64,000 nucleotides of DNA from NCBI GenBank assembly GCA_018697095.1, contig JABHSG010000003.1, positions 482,839-546,838 on the forward strand, written 5' to 3'. Made by a program: the position numbers and the translations under genes. The notes under the pieces are model-generated. The model saw nothing but the letters and a program-made list of their open reading frames with translations. It searched no databases and was not told the DNA's origin. This DNA comes from an archaeon. Lineage in GTDB: Archaea; Nanobdellota; Nanobdellia; Woesearchaeales; GW2011-AR9. Below, one piece after another: positions 12,483 to 25,219 of this stretch. The number at the start of each line of letters is the position of its first letter. The stretch's first letter is position 1.

Positions 12483-14108
12483 ATGGTGAAAAAAGGTGTT
12501 GGATTTAGGTCTTCTCTAGTAATGCTATTAGTAATAACTCTATTAATCTCAATCTCTACAACTGTTTTTGCAGTAGGTGAAGGAGAATTATGTACTGAAG
12601 ATGGCCATTGTGATACTGATCTTTATTGTGTAGATTATTTTTGTTCAACAGAAGAAAGCACAACAACCAGTACAACCACTGATGATACGACTACTGATGA
12701 TACCACTAGTAGTGATGAAGTAACTTGTTTAACTGATGATGATTGTGATTTTTATTTAGGCTCTGGTTATGAATGTGATATAGATTGGCTTGTTTGCGTA
12801 GAAGCCAGCGATGATGATAGTTCAACTTCAGAGGCTGACTTAGAATCCATTCAAGATAACCAAGATGACATTGCAACTTTAACTGATGATGTAAGTCTTC
12901 TTAACAGTCAACTTAGTGGGATTGATTCAAGGCTATTAGCAGTTGAAACTACTACCACTTCTACCTCCTCTGACATCACAGCAATTGATACAAGCTTAAC
13001 AACAATTGATTCTTCAGTAACGCAACTTACAACTAAGGTTGACACATTAAATACGAACATTCAACTTTTATCAACAGATCAAAATCAATTAGAACGTAAC
13101 ATCGAACAAGAGGTAAATACTCTTCAAGCGCAAGTTGGAAACTCCATTGCAACTTTAGAACAAGAAATAGATACTGCTAAAGGAGATCTAGATGACACTA
13201 AAGTTGCATTAGAAGCGCAAGCAAAAAAAGCTCAAAATTATCGGACAGTTACTTTAATTGTTGGAGTTATCGCTATTTTTAGCGCAATTGCATACGTTTT
13301 AATGGTTCATTCAAAACGTCAAACTCAGCTTCCAAAAGAAGCAAAACAATTTATTACAGATCAAATCAAATCTGGCCAAACAAAACATCAAATTACAACT
13401 TCTCTTCAAAAAAGTGGTTGGAGTGAACACGACGCGCAGTGGGCATACGACCATACTAAAACAGAAAATTATAATGAGTATCTTATCTCACAAGGAAAAG
13501 ATCCAAAAGCTTTACCAGCAAGAAAGGCGGGAAGTGGTCATCATCAAAAAGCGTTAGCAATTTCAATCATCAGTATTTTGATTTTAGGTGTTATGCTTTT
13601 CTTTGTAAAAAATTCTGTAGGTAATGCAATTTTTATTACAGGTTCAGGAACTCAAAGTGACTTATCTGAAACTGTAGAAAGTTTGCTTGAAACATATGTT
13701 GATCAAAATGCTTTTTACAACGAAATAGATTATATTGAACTTTGTGTGCAAGTTGATGACGGATCACTCTCTTCTTCTTGGCTGGTTCTAAAAACTCCTT
13801 ATGGTCATAGCGTCACGCAAAACGATGCTTGCGAGTGGGACCCTACTGATTACGATTTTGCAATAAAGTTCACAAACTACAACAGTTTTGAATCAGCAAT
13901 GACTTCACTTACTTGTACTAATGCTGGTCTAGTTCACCGTGTACTCTCAGGGTCATCAGTAACAAGAGGAGCATTTGTACTTCCATCATACTTTATTGAC
14001 GAAGGTATGTCAGCAAAATCCAGTGTAGATTATTCGGATTATTGTGATGCACTAAGTCTTTGTTTTAGTGCAAGTGACATTGTGACTCTTGGTGTAAATG
14101 ATTGTTAA
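12483..14108 (+). CDS. Large membrane protein: Cys-rich ectodomain, coiled coil, two TM helices
   Basis: 541 aa. Signal peptide or first helix at about 10-30 (SLVMLLVITLLISISTTVFA), then two short Cys-rich units (about 35-60 and 80-103, each with DxDC/CxxDxxC spacing) separated by Thr/Asp-rich linkers. A long coiled coil follows (about 118-250, repeated LTTKVDTLN-type heptads), then a TM helix (about 257-275). A cytoplasmic segment contains KQFITDQIKSGQTKHQI and GWSEHDAQWAYDH, then a second TM helix (about 358-374) and a Cys-containing C-terminal domain outside. It resembles a sensor or surface-stalk architecture. Function unknown; the neighbouring kinases are suggestive only. Confidence 0.65.
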   Translation: MVKKGVGFRSSLVMLLVITLLISISTTVFAVGEGELCTEDGHCDTDLYCVDYFCSTEESTTTSTTTDDTTTDDTTSSDEVTCLTDDDCDFYLGSGYECDIDWLVCVEASDDDSSTSEADLESIQDNQDDIATLTDDVSLLNSQLSGIDSRLLAVETTTTSTSSDITAIDTSLTTIDSSVTQLTTKVDTLNTNIQLLSTDQNQLERNIEQEVNTLQAQVGNSIATLEQEIDTAKGDLDDTKVALEAQAKKAQNYRTVTLIVGVIAIFSAIAYVLMVHSKRQTQLPKEAKQFITDQIKSGQTKHQITTSLQKSGWSEHDAQWAYDHTKTENYNEYLISQGKDPKALPARKAGSGHHQKALAISIISILILGVMLFFVKNSVGNAIFITGSGTQSDLSETVESLLETYVDQNAFYNEIDYIELCVQVDDGSLSSSWLVLKTPYGHSVTQNDACEWDPTDYDFAIKFTNYNSFESAMTSLTCTNAGLVHRVLSGSSVTRGAFVLPSYFIDEGMSAKSSVDYSDYCDALSLCFSASDIVTLGVNDC

Positions 14109-14229: not shown

Positions 14230-15240
14230 ATGGGAGAATTAAATTTAGACAGTGTTGAACGTGAATTGCCTTTGATGTATCAAGTAGCAACAAAAGTTGC
14301 AAACTTTCATGGTTATCAATTAAAAGGCGTTTTTGGTAAGGGTGGGTTGTCCTATGTTTTTGAAGCATCATCAGGTAATGGTCCTGTTGCGATAAAAATC
14401 CTTACCAAAGATTCAACTGATCGTGGCTTCCATATTGGTCAAGAGGTAACAACACAACGCGAAGTATATTCTCGGATTACTCCAAATGGTAATGGGCATA
14501 TTCCTGTTGCTCAAGTTTTAGGACATAATGCACATTGTACTCCTGGATTACCAAGAGAATATGCAGTCTTTTCTGCATGGCCAAATGGTTCTTGCCTTGC
14601 TGGGAAAACGTTAGGGTATTCTGGAATTCAAACTGTAGTACATGATGTTGGGTCTGTTTTTGGAGTTGTTCATGGTTTGGGCAAGCTCTTTAATGACGCT
14701 AAAAGGCGTAATCTTTACCTAACTTCTTCTGGTGCAGCAGTGGGTGATTTTGGTTCTGTGATGGAAAAAGGTAAGATTCCTCCTTTTCTCACACTTGATT
14801 ATGCTTCGCCAGAACAACTTGCTGATTTGCCTTGTTTTGAAAAAAGTGATGTTTTCATGCTTGCTCAAGTTTTGTATAGGTTAGCTACTGGTCTCGAAGT
14901 AGTTAATTTTTCATTACAAAATGGCTTAAACTATGGGGAATTAAAACAAACTGTTCTAAATCAAACTGAAACTACTTTTTCAACCCCTAACAGCGTCAGG
15001 GATATAAGAAATCATCTGGATCTTTATTTACCAACATCTGCAGCAGATGTAGTAATGTCTGCTTTAGAAATGAGTCCAGATAATCGTCCGACTTTAGGTG
15101 AATTAATCGCTGGCTTTGAAGTTAGCCCTTCAGTTGCTGAAGAAAAACCTGTCTCTTCTCCTACTTCTAGTGGTAGGTCACAATTATTAGATGGACATAC
15201 TTTTCCTGCTGGTTGGGAAATGCCCTCACTAAATAAGTAA
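14230..15240 (+). CDS. Hanks-type protein kinase, divergent
   Basis: Eukaryotic-like Ser/Thr kinase fold, 336 aa. The glycine loop is GKGGLSYVFE (36-45), VAIKIL gives the ATP-binding Lys (about 56), and the catalytic loop reads FNDAKRRNLYL (Asp about 155), so the usual HRD is replaced by FND while Asp, Lys and Asn remain. DFGS (about 172) supplies the metal ligand. YASPEQL matches the APE region and SDVFMLAQVLYRLATG the F helix. A Ser/Pro-rich tail of about 50 residues follows. The substrate is unknown. It is followed by a second kinase with its own promoter. Confidence 0.82.
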   Translation: MGELNLDSVERELPLMYQVATKVANFHGYQLKGVFGKGGLSYVFEASSGNGPVAIKILTKDSTDRGFHIGQEVTTQREVYSRITPNGNGHIPVAQVLGHNAHCTPGLPREYAVFSAWPNGSCLAGKTLGYSGIQTVVHDVGSVFGVVHGLGKLFNDAKRRNLYLTSSGAAVGDFGSVMEKGKIPPFLTLDYASPEQLADLPCFEKSDVFMLAQVLYRLATGLEVVNFSLQNGLNYGELKQTVLNQTETTFSTPNSVRDIRNHLDLYLPTSAADVVMSALEMSPDNRPTLGELIAGFEVSPSVAEEKPVSSPTSSGRSQLLDGHTFPAGWEMPSLNK

Positions 15241-15300: not shown

Positions 15301-16209
15301 ATGGATATCATAGAAGCAAGAAGCTTAATCAAAGGTAGAAAGCCTAACTATTCTGGCGGTGGTGGTGAAGTATACATTGCTATGTCTAAGACTGGGATTC
15401 CTGTTGCAATTAAAACAACGCATCCTGGTAGAAGGCCTTCTGAGTTATTTGACTTGGATAAAATAATGGTTAGGCGAGAAATCCTTAAAAGAGAAATAGA
15501 CTGTGCACTCAGGTTTGGTGATCATCCCAATATCCCTTCGCTTTTGTGCTATGGTAATTTTCCTTTTGGTCATCGTGCTGATATTATGGTTCAACAATAT
15601 GCTGGTACTTCTGCAAAAAATTTAAGATATCCATCGACTCCTCGTTCAATATCTGATATCGCCTCGAGAGCTACTTCAGTTGCAAGGGTTCTTGGATACT
15701 TAGAACAAAATAATGTTGTTCATCAAGATGTAAAACCTTCTAATATCCTCACAACAGATCAAGGAATAACTTCTCTTGCTGATTTTGGTATTGCAATGCA
15801 TTGGGGGGAAGCTAGTACTAGATTATCTCAGGGTTTTTCTACTGGAACCCCTAGCTATACATCTAAACTTAAAAAATCAACACCTAAATCAAAAGATTGT
15901 CTTGGAATTGTAAAAGCTGCTGATCGTTTTGCATTAGGTGTAACTCTAACTGAGTTTTTATTTGGTGCGAATTCATCACCTGATTTAAGAAGAGAAGTTT
16001 TAGAAAGTGTTAGTAATTCTGATCGTATTTTTGATGTAGCTAATTCCTTGATGGGAGACTATAACATGCCTTGGGATAATGTAGTCGATACTCTTCAAGA
16101 AATCTCTGGTATTGATCCAGTAATGTATTCTCCTGCTGTTTTTGGTACTGTTGATGATGTGCCTGTTAACATCCCAGATATCACTAGGGAAGACCGTATT
16201 GTCCCTTAA
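15301..16209 (+). CDS. Hanks-type Ser/Thr protein kinase
   Basis: 302 aa kinase with a near-canonical core: SGGGGEVYIAM glycine loop (18-28), VAIKTT (ATP-binding Lys about 39), a conserved Glu in LKREIDCALRFGDHPNI, catalytic loop VVHQDVKPSNIL (about 139-150), and LADFGIAM (about 158-165). STGTPSYTS follows the activation segment. No membrane helix or extra sensor domain is present, so it is soluble. It shares kinase ancestry with the preceding gene but is more conserved. Its promoter belongs to the five-member set with the palindromic element. Confidence 0.88.
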   Translation: MDIIEARSLIKGRKPNYSGGGGEVYIAMSKTGIPVAIKTTHPGRRPSELFDLDKIMVRREILKREIDCALRFGDHPNIPSLLCYGNFPFGHRADIMVQQYAGTSAKNLRYPSTPRSISDIASRATSVARVLGYLEQNNVVHQDVKPSNILTTDQGITSLADFGIAMHWGEASTRLSQGFSTGTPSYTSKLKKSTPKSKDCLGIVKAADRFALGVTLTEFLFGANSSPDLRREVLESVSNSDRIFDVANSLMGDYNMPWDNVVDTLQEISGIDPVMYSPAVFGTVDDVPVNIPDITREDRIVP

Positions 16210-17875: not shown

Positions 17876-18745
17876 TTAAGCAAGTACTTCACTCCCTTCC
17901 AAAACTTTGTGATCATCAAGTACTGCCTTCAAACTAGCAATTCCAACTTCAATCTGCGAATCTGTTGGCTCTTTAGTTGTAATGCGTTGAGTCCAAAGTC
18001 CAGGAGCAATAGCCAACCTCACAAGCCAATTCTTATCAAAGCGATAACTAAGTTTGATTGCTTCAAAACCTAGTGCTGCTACTACTGGAATTAATACAAC
18101 CCGTCCTACTAATTTCATAATTGTACCACCAGGAATTAGCATAAATACTAAAATCGAAATTCCACCAACAAACACTAAAAATGAAGTCCCGCAACGTGGA
18201 TGAAATCTACTATACTTACGCACATTAGAGACAATCAAATCTTCGCCAGCTTCATAGCAAGCAATCGATTTATGTTCTGCTCCATGATATGCAAATAATG
18301 TTTTCACATCATCCATACGTGATATAAGTAAAATGTATCCCAGAAAAAATCCTACTCTAAATAACCCATCAACCAAATCAAACAGTACTCCATCAATTCC
18401 AATCCACTTAGTCAAAAAGAACGGTATCCCTACAAACACAACTAGTGCAATTCCAAAAGAAAATATCATTGTCAAAACAGCTTCATGAGGTTTGATTACT
18501 TCGTCTTCGTCAAGTTGCTGGTTTCCAGACCAAATTAGTGCGCGAATACCATCATATAATGTAAACCATAAACCCAGTGCTCCTCGAACAAAAGGCCATG
18601 AAAAGAATTTAGGGAACTCTCGCGCTTTCTCTTTTTTAATCTCAATACTCCCATCAGGTTTGCGAACAGCAATTGCGAACTTCTCTTTATTACGCATCAT
18701 CACGCCTTCAATTACTGCTTGTCCACCAACATTCATAATTAACAC
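17876..18745 (-). CDS. DUF1385 (YqhQ-like) membrane protein
   Basis: 289 aa integral membrane protein. It opens with NVGGQAVIEGVMMRNKEKFA, the DUF1385 hallmark, and has AYHGAEHKSIACYEAGEDL and SRFHPRCGTSFLVFV in the centre, also family-specific with conserved His, Glu and Cys. Four or five hydrophobic segments lie between about 95 and 240. The start is GTG with GGAG nine bases upstream; an ATG three codons on is the alternative. Function is unknown across the family, which is common in bacteria. Paired with DUF1653. Confidence 0.88.
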   Translation of the reverse strand: MLIMNVGGQAVIEGVMMRNKEKFAIAVRKPDGSIEIKKEKAREFPKFFSWPFVRGALGLWFTLYDGIRALIWSGNQQLDEDEVIKPHEAVLTMIFSFGIALVVFVGIPFFLTKWIGIDGVLFDLVDGLFRVGFFLGYILLISRMDDVKTLFAYHGAEHKSIACYEAGEDLIVSNVRKYSRFHPRCGTSFLVFVGGISILVFMLIPGGTIMKLVGRVVLIPVVAALGFEAIKLSYRFDKNWLVRLAIAPGLWTQRITTKEPTDSQIEVGIASLKAVLDDHKVLEGSEVLA

Positions 18746-21061: not shown

Positions 21062-22099
21062 ATGAAAGCAAATCTAAATTCACTTTTAGTAGGGGCAATC
21101 ACCTTAGCAGCTACATCATTATTTCCTAATTCTGCTCATGCAACATCAGGGCAAGAAATTCAAACAACTTATGATCAAATGTTTCATGATGCTAAGATCC
21201 CTTCAGAATTATATTCAACTCTAAAGCCTTCTGCAGAATTATTTACAATGTTTTGTATTGAAGGTAGAATAAACGATACAGATCGAAGGTTACAAGTAAT
21301 TAAACACAGAAAAAAAGATCTTTCTAATGCAGGGATAAAACTTGATTTAGGATCAACTTCTTATTTAGTTGCCCCTGACGATATTACTTTTAGTTGTGAT
21401 GACAATGTGCCTAGTTTAGAAAATCATCTTCCTACAGAAAGAGAGTTCCTAGCTAGTATGGCCTCTGCTGATGGGTATCGTTCTCGTTCAGACCAAAGAA
21501 AAGCAAGGCAAACAAATGCTCAAAGAAACCCTTCATTTCTTTTAACTGAGCTAGACACTCTAGGTGAAGCGTATTTTGTGGCTTGTGCAAATGGTTTTGC
21601 TGACCCATACGATACTGGTAGTATGATGAGTTCAACACAAATAAAAAAATTAGTTGTAAAACAACTTCAGACATCTGGGTGTACTACTGAAGTTGAAATT
21701 TCTTGTAATAGTGGAATGTATGGTGCAAGATTTGATATTCCAACAGACTTGGAATGTGGCACTCGTGATTATAATTTAACTTTTGCAAAAACTCCAGGGA
21801 GTAAATCTGAAACTGCTTACATAGCCCCAATTGACCCTGAACTAAAAGCTACTTTGGAAGGCCCAGTAGATACAATCGCTACAGCGTGTAGTGATGGAAC
21901 CCTCCCTAACCAAGATACTGGTCTTCAAGACACCGGTGTCAATGAAGCTTATCAGATTATTTTTGAAACATTAGAAAATGCGCAGTGTCCTGAAATTTTT
22001 GATACCTTAATCACTTGTAAATTAGAACCAACTGGGTATCAGCCAAAAACAAATTGGGACGCTCTTGGATCTTGCAATAATTATTCTTTAGAACTTTAA
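21062..22099 (+). CDS. Secreted Cys-containing repeat protein 1
   Basis: 345 aa with a signal peptide (SLLVGAITLAATSLFPNSAHA, cut near residue 28). The mature part appears to hold three diverged modules with a Cys-x-x-G start: FCIEGRIND (about 71), VACANGFADPYDTG (about 180) and ATACSDGTLPNQDTG (about 275). Each continues with a helix and a strand pair carrying further Cys (SGCTTEVEISCNSG and AQCPEIFDTLITCKLE), so disulfides outside the cell are likely. Family not recognised. It shares promoter and helix features with the next gene. Confidence 0.62.
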   Translation: MKANLNSLLVGAITLAATSLFPNSAHATSGQEIQTTYDQMFHDAKIPSELYSTLKPSAELFTMFCIEGRINDTDRRLQVIKHRKKDLSNAGIKLDLGSTSYLVAPDDITFSCDDNVPSLENHLPTEREFLASMASADGYRSRSDQRKARQTNAQRNPSFLLTELDTLGEAYFVACANGFADPYDTGSMMSSTQIKKLVVKQLQTSGCTTEVEISCNSGMYGARFDIPTDLECGTRDYNLTFAKTPGSKSETAYIAPIDPELKATLEGPVDTIATACSDGTLPNQDTGLQDTGVNEAYQIIFETLENAQCPEIFDTLITCKLEPTGYQPKTNWDALGSCNNYSLEL

Positions 22100-22201: not shown

Positions 22202-23875
22202 ATGGTTGGTATAAAACAAAGTGTGATGGCTGGTTTGACTTCTCTACTAATGGCTGGAGCTACAATGGCTCCAAGTACTGCAATGGCTCAGGATTCAGTA
22301 AATCCTAATTCAGCTTTTTGTCCAACAGGTATTGATAATTCACTATATGAAGATATTAACGAGCAAGGAGCATACGGTGATCGTTCTCTTAGTGCAACAG
22401 TCCCTTTTCTAAATGACGTTTTAGTTGCTTGGAATGATCAAAATCCTCGTTCTACAGAATATAAAATTAGGTTAAGGTCATCATCTCCAGAAATATTTGC
22501 TAATTTAATGCAAACTAGTCATGGTTTGGGTTTATCCACAACAGAAAAAGGAAAACCAATTACTATTGCGACTGTAAACACTCAAACTTATGTGATCAAT
22601 ACTCCTGGTAATGTTTTAGATACCTATGTAAAATCAGATGGAATTGTTTCTGGCATACTTTTTAATGTTGCAAGAAGAATTGCAAAAGCTTGCGTAGATG
22701 GCCCAACTGTTAGTGCAACTAGTTACACTCGTGTTCCAGTAGCATCACCACCAGCACCAAGAGCAAAACCTAAAACTCCAATCACAAGAGTTCCAATTAC
22801 AGGTCAAACTAATCAAGCAGCAAGAGATGCATTAGTAAGGCAGCCAACTGTTAGCGCAGCCAGTGCACCACCAGCCCCGCAAACTGGTTCTAAAATACCT
22901 TCAATGTTTGAAGCTGCACCGTTAAGTCTCAATCCAGGAACTCCTCCTACTAGCCTTTATACAGATCCAGTAGCTGCAACAGCAACTGCAAGGCCAGCAG
23001 GCCCTAACCCTCCTGCTTCTACAAGACGAAATTACGATGGTTACGAATCTTTTTTTAAAAGTGGTGAATTTCCAAATATCGTAATCTTCGCATCCGAAGG
23101 TGGCCAAAGAACACTTCTTGATCGCCGCAATGACAAAACACTAACTTGTAATACAAATCCAGGATACAACGTTGCTACTGCAATAAGTGAGGGTTACGTT
23201 GCTGATGATTATGGGAGTCGTGGAGTTCTAGTAGGTTTAGATAGAGTAATCCAATCTGCAGAAGAAGGTTTCAGTGTTAGTAGAATATCAGAAGGTGGAA
23301 AAGAATCTTGGTGGACTCATAAAAATTCTATTAATTATTTTGAGTTTGAGTTAGAACATAGATCTGATCCAAACGTGTACTCAGTAAGTGACACACCTCT
23401 TGGTATTGGTGCTGATAGCGCTAGGATTTGGGTAAAACGAAATAGCACAAAATTAGAATCAGATAGTGCGATGGAAGATTTCGGTTTTCCAATCTATGCG
23501 CAAGTTCTAACAGACTTAGCAAAACTTTGTGATCCTTCAAAAACAAAACCAGTAGCGCAAACAGCTCCACCTCCATTAGCAAAAGCAAAATCTACTCCTT
23601 CAAAACTTGAAATCACTGGCCGTCTTGAATGTCCAACTGGTATTGACTATACAAGTGTTGCAGATACCTCTGAGGCTTATCGAACCATGTTTCTTGATAT
23701 GGTGAAAACTCGTGATGGTGACAGGTATATTAGTCCATTCATTACAAAAGATGGTTCAAATTCAACTGTCGTTTTAAACAGTGAACTTGGCCCAAATGGA
23801 CCAGTTCTATATCTTGAATTAATGTCTAAAGGTTCAAATGGTGTTAGTGGCCATATGGAAATGTATGTTCCATAA
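22202..23875 (+). CDS. Secreted three-module repeat protein 2, interrupted by an in-frame stop
   Basis: 557 aa to the first stop. Signal peptide (SLLMAGATMAPSTAMAQ, cut near residue 30). Module 1 starts CPTGID at residue 40 and ends AKACVDG (about 167). A Pro/Ala-rich linker (about 175-275) leads to module 2 (about 277-455, ending LAKLCDPS). A second Pro/Lys linker leads to module 3, which again starts CPTGID at residue 477. Module 3 breaks at TAA (23873-23875), but the same frame stays open for 57 codons to 24049, ending with a helix and Cys (LGNLVAPYCADQ) like modules 1 and 2. So the gene is probably a recently truncated 615-codon gene, or the stop is read through. Function unknown. Confidence 0.72.
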   Translation: MVGIKQSVMAGLTSLLMAGATMAPSTAMAQDSVNPNSAFCPTGIDNSLYEDINEQGAYGDRSLSATVPFLNDVLVAWNDQNPRSTEYKIRLRSSSPEIFANLMQTSHGLGLSTTEKGKPITIATVNTQTYVINTPGNVLDTYVKSDGIVSGILFNVARRIAKACVDGPTVSATSYTRVPVASPPAPRAKPKTPITRVPITGQTNQAARDALVRQPTVSAASAPPAPQTGSKIPSMFEAAPLSLNPGTPPTSLYTDPVAATATARPAGPNPPASTRRNYDGYESFFKSGEFPNIVIFASEGGQRTLLDRRNDKTLTCNTNPGYNVATAISEGYVADDYGSRGVLVGLDRVIQSAEEGFSVSRISEGGKESWWTHKNSINYFEFELEHRSDPNVYSVSDTPLGIGADSARIWVKRNSTKLESDSAMEDFGFPIYAQVLTDLAKLCDPSKTKPVAQTAPPPLAKAKSTPSKLEITGRLECPTGIDYTSVADTSEAYRTMFLDMVKTRDGDRYISPFITKDGSNSTVVLNSELGPNGPVLYLELMSKGSNGVSGHMEMYVP

Positions 23876-24049
23876 TTTGGTGCATCAGATGGACACGTTT
23901 ATAGGGAATCTTCTTCATCTTCTCTTAATGGTATCTCTGAAACAAACGGGATGGCTAAACCTCATTCTAGGGGAGCATTATTTGAATTAGGAAACTTAGT
24001 AGCACCTTACTGTGCAGATCAAACAACAACCACAAAACCTTCACCTTAA
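23876..24049 (+). pseudogene. In-frame continuation of the secreted repeat protein beyond TAA
   Basis: 57 sense codons follow the TAA with no shift of frame, then TAA at 24047-24049. The translated tail (starts FGASDGHVYRE, ends TTTTKPSP) supplies the missing half of module 3, including the terminal Cys helix. It has no start codon or promoter of its own. It is either dead coding sequence or a readthrough extension. Confidence 0.7.
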
Positions 24050-24050
24050 T

Positions 24051-24080
24051 TTTATTCTAATTAATTTTTATTCTAATTAA
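24051..24080. repeat. 14-bp direct repeat upstream of orc1/cdc6
   Basis: TTTATTCTAATTAA occurs twice (24051-24064 and 24067-24080). The repeat is purely AT-rich apart from one C and lies 70-100 nt before the initiator gene. It may be a terminator-like tract or part of an origin unwinding element; no classical origin recognition box is visible. Confidence 0.45.
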
Positions 24081-24121
24081 CTAATCTATCTTTAATACAC
24101 TCATTCTGAATTAAAGTAATT

Positions 24122-24130
24122 TTTATATAC
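24122..24130 (+). promoter_or_regulatory. TATA box of orc1/cdc6
   Basis: TTTATATAC begins exactly 30 nt before the ATG with no Shine-Dalgarno, the leaderless arrangement seen throughout the window. Confidence 0.6.
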
Positions 24131-24151
24131 CAAGCATAACCCAAAACTCTT

Positions 24152-25219
24152 ATGTCTATTTTCAAAGAGATGTTAAAATCAGGTGAAACTCTATTTCGTG
24201 ATACTATAGTTCTAGACTATGATTTTCAACCAAAAATTCTCAAGTTTCGTGAAAATGAGCAAGCACGTTTTGCTGTAGCTATTAGGCCGCTATTCCAAAA
24301 CCATTCTGGAAAAAACCTTTTTGTTTACGGAGCTCCAGGTATTGGAAAAACAACTGCTTGCAAAAATGTAATTCGTGAACTTGAAGAAGAAACTGATGAC
24401 ATCTATGCAATTTATGTTAACTGTTGGAAATTTAATACGACTTTCAAAGTCTTCAATAAAATTTGTGAAGAACTCGGTTTCAGATTCATTCAAAACAAAA
24501 AAACAAGTGAGCTATTTGCATTAATTAAAGAAAAACTAAACAAAACTGCAGCAGTTTTTATTTTTGACGAGATAGACAAATTAGAAGACACAGATTTTCT
24601 TTATACAATCCTTGAAGATATTTACAGAAAAACAATCATCTTACTTACAAATTACCGCGATACTTATTCTGAAATGGATGAGAGGATCAGGTCTCGCTTA
24701 TCTCCAGAGTTTTTACACTTTCGTGAGTACAAAGAATCAGAAGTTAAAGGCATCTTAGAAGAGCGAAGAAAATATGCTTTTGTACAAAACTGCTGGAACG
24801 AAGAAGCCTTTGATGAACTTGTTTTGAAATGTACACAAACAATGGATCTAAGAATTGGTTTGTACCTAATGAAAGAAGCAGGTAACATCGCTGAGGAAAA
24901 AGCTAACAAAAAGATAACTGTTGAACATGTAGCTAGAGCGATTCAAAAAGTTGATGAGTTTTATATCAAACCTAAAGAAGCGCTTCCAGCAGAACTTTTG
25001 CAAATATTAGACCTCATAAAATCCAAGCCAGCCAGTAAAATAGGGGATGTTTACAATGAGTTTTGCGACCGTGGTTCAGAAATGAGCTACAAAAGTTTTC
25101 AAAGAAGAATTGTCAAACTTGAGCAAGGCAAATATATTCAAACTCAAAAGAAAACCACAGAAAAAGGCAACACTACTATCTTGCATTATAACACTGTGAA
25201 AAAGCTCAGCGAATTCTAG
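24152..25219 (+). CDS. cdc6: Orc1/Cdc6 replication initiator
   Basis: AAA+ origin-binding and helicase-loading ATPase, 355 aa. Walker A is GAPGIGKT (about 60-67), Walker B FIFDEIDKL (about 135-143), sensor 1 IILLTN and the arginine-finger region IRSRLSPEF. A C-terminal winged helix (about 275-355, SYKSFQRRIVKLEQGKYI) binds DNA. Archaeal origins often lie next to this gene; the AT-rich repeats just upstream fit but do not prove that. Confidence 0.94.
   Translation: MSIFKEMLKSGETLFRDTIVLDYDFQPKILKFRENEQARFAVAIRPLFQNHSGKNLFVYGAPGIGKTTACKNVIRELEEETDDIYAIYVNCWKFNTTFKVFNKICEELGFRFIQNKKTSELFALIKEKLNKTAAVFIFDEIDKLEDTDFLYTILEDIYRKTIILLTNYRDTYSEMDERIRSRLSPEFLHFREYKESEVKGILEERRKYAFVQNCWNEEAFDELVLKCTQTMDLRIGLYLMKEAGNIAEEKANKKITVEHVARAIQKVDEFYIKPKEALPAELLQILDLIKSKPASKIGDVYNEFCDRGSEMSYKSFQRRIVKLEQGKYIQTQKKTTEKGNTTILHYNTVKKLSEF

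Follow-up and report, generated by a model that had tools for sequence, protein, structure and literature searches.

A probable young nonsense mutation in the third module of an orphan secreted protein from a Woesearchaeales archaeon

The interrupted gene and its modules

The window, a stretch of 64,000 nucleotides of archaeal DNA, carries on its forward strand an open reading frame of 557 residues (22202–23875) for a secreted multi-module orphan protein. This is the annotatable frame from ATG 22202, and it ends at an apparently premature TAA (23873–23875). Reading on from that codon, which lies 557 codons into the frame, we find 57 further sense codons (the extension, 23876–24046) before a second TAA at 24047–24049, exactly as the initial annotation had described. 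A T-rich tract at 24050–24080 (+ strand), consisting of two direct copies of a 15-nucleotide unit placed 16 bases apart from start to start, follows directly upon the second TAA; we take it to be a candidate archaeal-type oligo-T terminator.

The translation begins with what we assume, applying the AxA rule, to be a probable Sec signal peptide (residues 1–29, 22202–22288, with AMA before Gln30). Module 1 extends from Cys40 to Cys164 (22319–22693) and is separated by a long Pro-, Ala- and Thr-rich linker, as read from the translation (22709–23017), from module 2, which extends from Cys316 to Cys443 (23147–23530). A short linker then leads into module 3, which starts at Cys477 and is split by the in-frame TAA. 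Its partner cysteine, Cys604, lies in the extension, and with module 3 read across the TAA (23630–24013, like all these features on the forward strand) the three Cys-Cys distances are 124, 127 and 127 residues. The extension therefore completes module 3 with a terminal cysteine, as had been claimed for it, and restores a sixth Cys, while the truncated 557-residue product has an odd count of five. The protein is presumably secreted, with its modules bounded by disulphides.

When six cysteines were placed at random, three pair spacings within 3 residues of each other arose in 0.11% of trials, in a test that was framed post hoc. Alignment shows significant similarity between modules 1 and 3 (p about 0.006, or 0.002 with other module bounds). 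Pairwise alignment of module 2 with modules 1 and 3 gave no significant similarity (p 0.48 and 0.16, respectively; 0.118 and 0.216 with the other bounds), and this module may be counted as a repeat by its place in the 124/127/127 series of paired-Cys spacings and by its C-terminal motif. The extension is matched by the C-terminal ends of module 1 (p 0.004) and module 2 (p 0.012), stretches that were picked after they had been seen; shuffling the extension by itself did not significantly lower the score between modules 1 and 3 (p 0.18). Two AlphaFold2 models built from module alignments have mean pLDDT values of 36.3 and 36.9, that is, very low confidence. In each, strands precede a helix at the C-terminal end, an agreement that proves little given that the same three sequences underlie both. 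Thus, of the proposed threefold repeat with a common helix-Cys ending, the likeness of modules 1 and 3 and the final cysteine stand, while the similarity of module 2 falls short of significance in pairwise comparison and the helix appears only in models of mean pLDDT 36–37.

Coding character of the extension and the original end of the gene

We scored codon usage with a model whose training set comprised open reading frames no shorter than 120 codons, drawn from the window and from 300 kb of the same genome; the set amounted to 98,455 codons, and the gene under study was excluded. The extension scores 0.198 per codon, compared with 0.201 for the 557 codons upstream of the TAA and 0.199 for the last 57 codons before it. 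True coding windows of 57 codons have a mean of 0.167 (sd 0.097, n = 1532), and 63% of them score no higher than the extension; out-of-frame windows of the same length from this genome have a mean of −0.180, and none of 3064 reaches its score. When the bases of the extension were shuffled, 2.5% of the shuffles kept the frame open, and its codon score was attained by none of 20,000. The remaining five frames of the stretch all contain stops. Given that the extension matches the body of the gene and is unmatched out of frame, it must be translated in this frame now or have been so until recently. We conclude that the 57 codons are coding, or were until recently, and are not a chance open frame; downstream codon use, whose randomness would have spoken for an ordinary gene end, is not random. 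The frame from ATG 22202 continues with undiminished score; we can also uphold the view that the lesion is a single nonsense codon, and a frameshift is rejected. So is a separate small gene inside the extension, where the sole start-like codon is an ATG at extension codon 26.

A survey of 330 genes, each with a visible further in-frame stop, puts this extension in context. An in-frame run of at least 57 codons past the stop occurs in 18 of them, most of these runs entering the next gene, and the higher-scoring ones enter a downstream gene with a separate start that lies close to where the run begins. With such next-gene runs set aside, the extension studied here has the best score of the 330. 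Among the 233 runs overlapped for less than 20% by another kept open reading frame, two reach 57 codons, namely this extension and a small gene in its own right, which by eye we take to be Nop10-like. No other surveyed gene has a clearly comparable lesion. Another gene, at L016:10131–10763 (+), has a frame that stays open for 53 codons past its TAA, with a weak score of 0.057 per codon and several cysteines.

Base composition bears on where the gene used to end. The G+C fraction is 0.357 just upstream of the first TAA and 0.398 in the extension, falling to 0.196 in 24050–24151. The 60 bases past the first TAA have a G+C content equal to or above that after 93% of 287 gene ends, while the 60 bases past the second lie at the 14th percentile of the same set. 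A T-run is found 15 bases past the second TAA; 44% of genes have one within 60 bases. Because the drop in composition and the T-rich start come after the second TAA and not the first, we infer that the TAA at 24047–24049 is the natural end of the gene.

Searches for relatives and families

For genome searches we used either the protein with its stop written as X or profiles built from the three modules. The protein search found the gene's own genome only among 58 relatives (1/58), and among 49 genomes of the family it found two, its own and one weak match to a short part (E 0.015). With the three-module profiles at E ≤0.1, 9 of 352 genomes of the order gave matches, these being its own and eight weak partial ones (E 0.006–0.07); with a threshold of 0.1 per genome, about 35 chance matches were to be expected, compared with the eight genomes beyond its own. 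The same profiles at E ≤0.001 returned only its own genome among 371 of the phylum (1/371), a set that overlaps that of the order. We rejected the weak genome matches as orthologues, as they cover short parts only at E 0.006–0.07. Scans of the genome_contigs and viral_contigs collections returned no relative, the protein belongs to no Pfam, NCBIfam or PHROGs family, and four PDB sequence matches (best E 0.68) were taken as chance. An Rfam scan of the window found no family.

The adjoining downstream gene (24152–25219) is of the Orc1/Cdc6 type, and its best relatives, at 62–71% identity, are in records named Candidatus Woesearchaeota, Nanoarchaeota or archaeon. At 34 loci around such relatives (33 of them titled Woesearchaeota, Nanoarchaeota, Nanoarchaeia or archaeon, and 20 with their upstream open reading frames listed) we detected no relative of the interrupted gene, the best tblastn match having E 2.2. 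The upstream neighbour (21062–22099, +) encodes 345 residues with 10 cysteines and also looks secreted; it has no NCBIfam or PHROGs match and a sub-threshold Pfam match only (E 0.13), and a second copy is absent from its own genome. The two genes would thus encode orphan secreted proteins side by side. Being secreted, lineage-restricted and without a recognised family, the interrupted protein resembles the rapidly evolving secreted proteins discussed in the available text of PMC3506625; that work concerns bacteria, and the link to an archaeal protein is one that we draw ourselves.

Origin of the in-frame stop

We favour a nonsense mutation of recent origin, either fixed or segregating, and assign this explanation a probability of roughly 70%. 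The original gene would have ended at the TAA at 24047–24049 and encoded a secreted protein of 615 residues with three disulphide-bounded modules. A single nonsense substitution at 23873–23875 would now end translation within module 3, depriving Cys477 of its partner, and would be too young for the 57 codons downstream to have decayed. The nonsense allele may be fixed, or may still segregate in the population behind the assembled genome. It is important to note that this explanation takes the change to have run from long to short, and the TAA to be a real base in the organism; both appear to us to be so.

How young the stop might be was gauged by simulating neutral decay with A+T-biased substitutions and with indels at 10% of substitutions. 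In the simulation the extension escaped both a new stop and an indel with a probability of 0.63 when 0.02 substitutions per site had accumulated, and this probability fell to 0.30 at 0.05, 0.096 at 0.1 and 0.01 at 0.2. By this model the lesion would probably have arisen less than about 0.1 substitutions per site ago, provided that translation no longer runs through the extension.

The alternatives differ in how they read the intact frame beyond the stop. A flawless coding extension with no second lesion would also fit an error at the level of a single base, whether from sequencing, polishing or consensus building, or a base taken from a minority strain, in which case the actual gene would have no interruption. 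With 4 contigs and 94.5% completeness for a 1.28-Mb genome, the assembly is not a complete one. The lesion, however, is of the substitution type and not an indel, and with nothing clearly comparable in the other genes of the survey the assembly is not visibly error-ridden here; we therefore consider such an artefact unlikely, though worth keeping in mind. That the first TAA is instead the true and long-established end, with a chance open frame beyond it, might be entertained given that some 2.5% of shuffles of the same composition leave 57 codons open, so that some such runs are expected across many genes, and that 18 of the 330 surveyed genes do have runs of this length, albeit mostly into the next gene. 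Against it are the codon score, which no shuffle and no out-of-frame window equalled, the cysteine spacing and the step in composition at the second stop, and we hold it to be highly improbable. A genome-wide switch of TAA to a sense codon has this one site to recommend it, and is in our estimation negligible: TAA terminates 172 of the 288 training genes, and no second clear unexplained coding extension was seen in 330 genes.

Readthrough requires a fuller treatment. Here ribosomes would sometimes decode the TAA, making a major secreted protein of 557 residues and a minor one of 615, with the extension under selection. Codon usage is undiminished in the extension, and continuous translation predicts just these statistics. 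Belinky et al. 2021 (PMC7918605), in the available text, report that dN/dS stays below 1 (0.74 for TAA) in the sequence surrounding orthologous in-frame stops of prokaryotes, and argue that conserved in-frame stops mean frequent readthrough in prokaryotes. The present stop is like those in being in frame and in being followed by a frame that retains coding character; as described there, they rest on conservation among orthologues, whereas we found no orthologue of this gene. Several observations also run counter to readthrough. The 557-residue product would carry five cysteines. The context TAA-T is common, T following TAA in 64 of 173 genes that end with this codon, and so the base after the stop is ordinary for a normal TAA end. 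Folding of the 100 nucleotides that start at the stop is no stronger than that of their shuffles (z 0.60), giving no sign of a stable RNA structure. None of the 28 tRNA matches has a stop-reading anticodon, in a tRNA set that is incomplete, the genome being 94.5% complete. For one of these, L025, ARAGORN leaves the choice between Lys and Stop, and by eye it is a tRNA-Lys with a 16-nucleotide intron. Considering these points together, we regard readthrough of any kind as quite unlikely, and its programmed form in this DPANN archaeon, with a short product whose unpaired cysteine stays free and a longer product in which a disulphide closes module 3, as slightly less likely still. Recoding by pyrrolysine (TAG) or selenocysteine (TGA) was rejected, as it had been at the outset, since the codon at the site is confirmed to be TAA. 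Thus, of the causes initially listed for the stop, readthrough has become unlikely, while truncation, error and population variation are not fully separable from one another.

A young nonsense mutation would be an unremarkable occurrence. Liu et al. 2004 (PMC522871), as far as the available text goes, give pseudogene fractions of 3.3–3.9% in archaeal, pathogenic and non-pathogenic groups, Mycobacterium leprae set aside, and describe recent pseudogenes as carrying few disablements. The gene studied here resembles young prokaryotic pseudogenes in having one in-frame stop in a coding frame that is otherwise intact. It differs from them in that the lesion is deduced from codon statistics and internal modules and not from an intact homologue, and in that the gene loses its last tenth only and may still work in part. 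On the reading that we favour, the stop is an ordinary event, one more recent lesion in a secreted protein confined to its lineage. In practice it means that gene callers will give a 557-residue protein without the end of its last module. Readthrough, if true, would be the surprising outcome, as an archaeal lineage without cultured members would then have regulated readthrough of TAA. Arguably more interesting than the stop is the protein itself, an orphan with three Cys-bounded modules for which we found no relative.

Some further features of the genome and the window were recorded in passing. With introns allowed, ARAGORN places introns in 15 of the 28 tRNA matches (L019–L046), some of them oddly positioned, and L025 makes a sixteenth by eye. 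Upstream in the window, two adjacent genes with protein-kinase domains (14230–15240 and 15301–16209, +; Pfam Pkinase E 1e-11 and 4e-18, respectively) are preceded by a coiled-coil-like gene (12483–14108), and a gene on the reverse strand (17876–18745) has a strong match to DUF1385 (PF07136, E 4e-78) in this archaeal genome.
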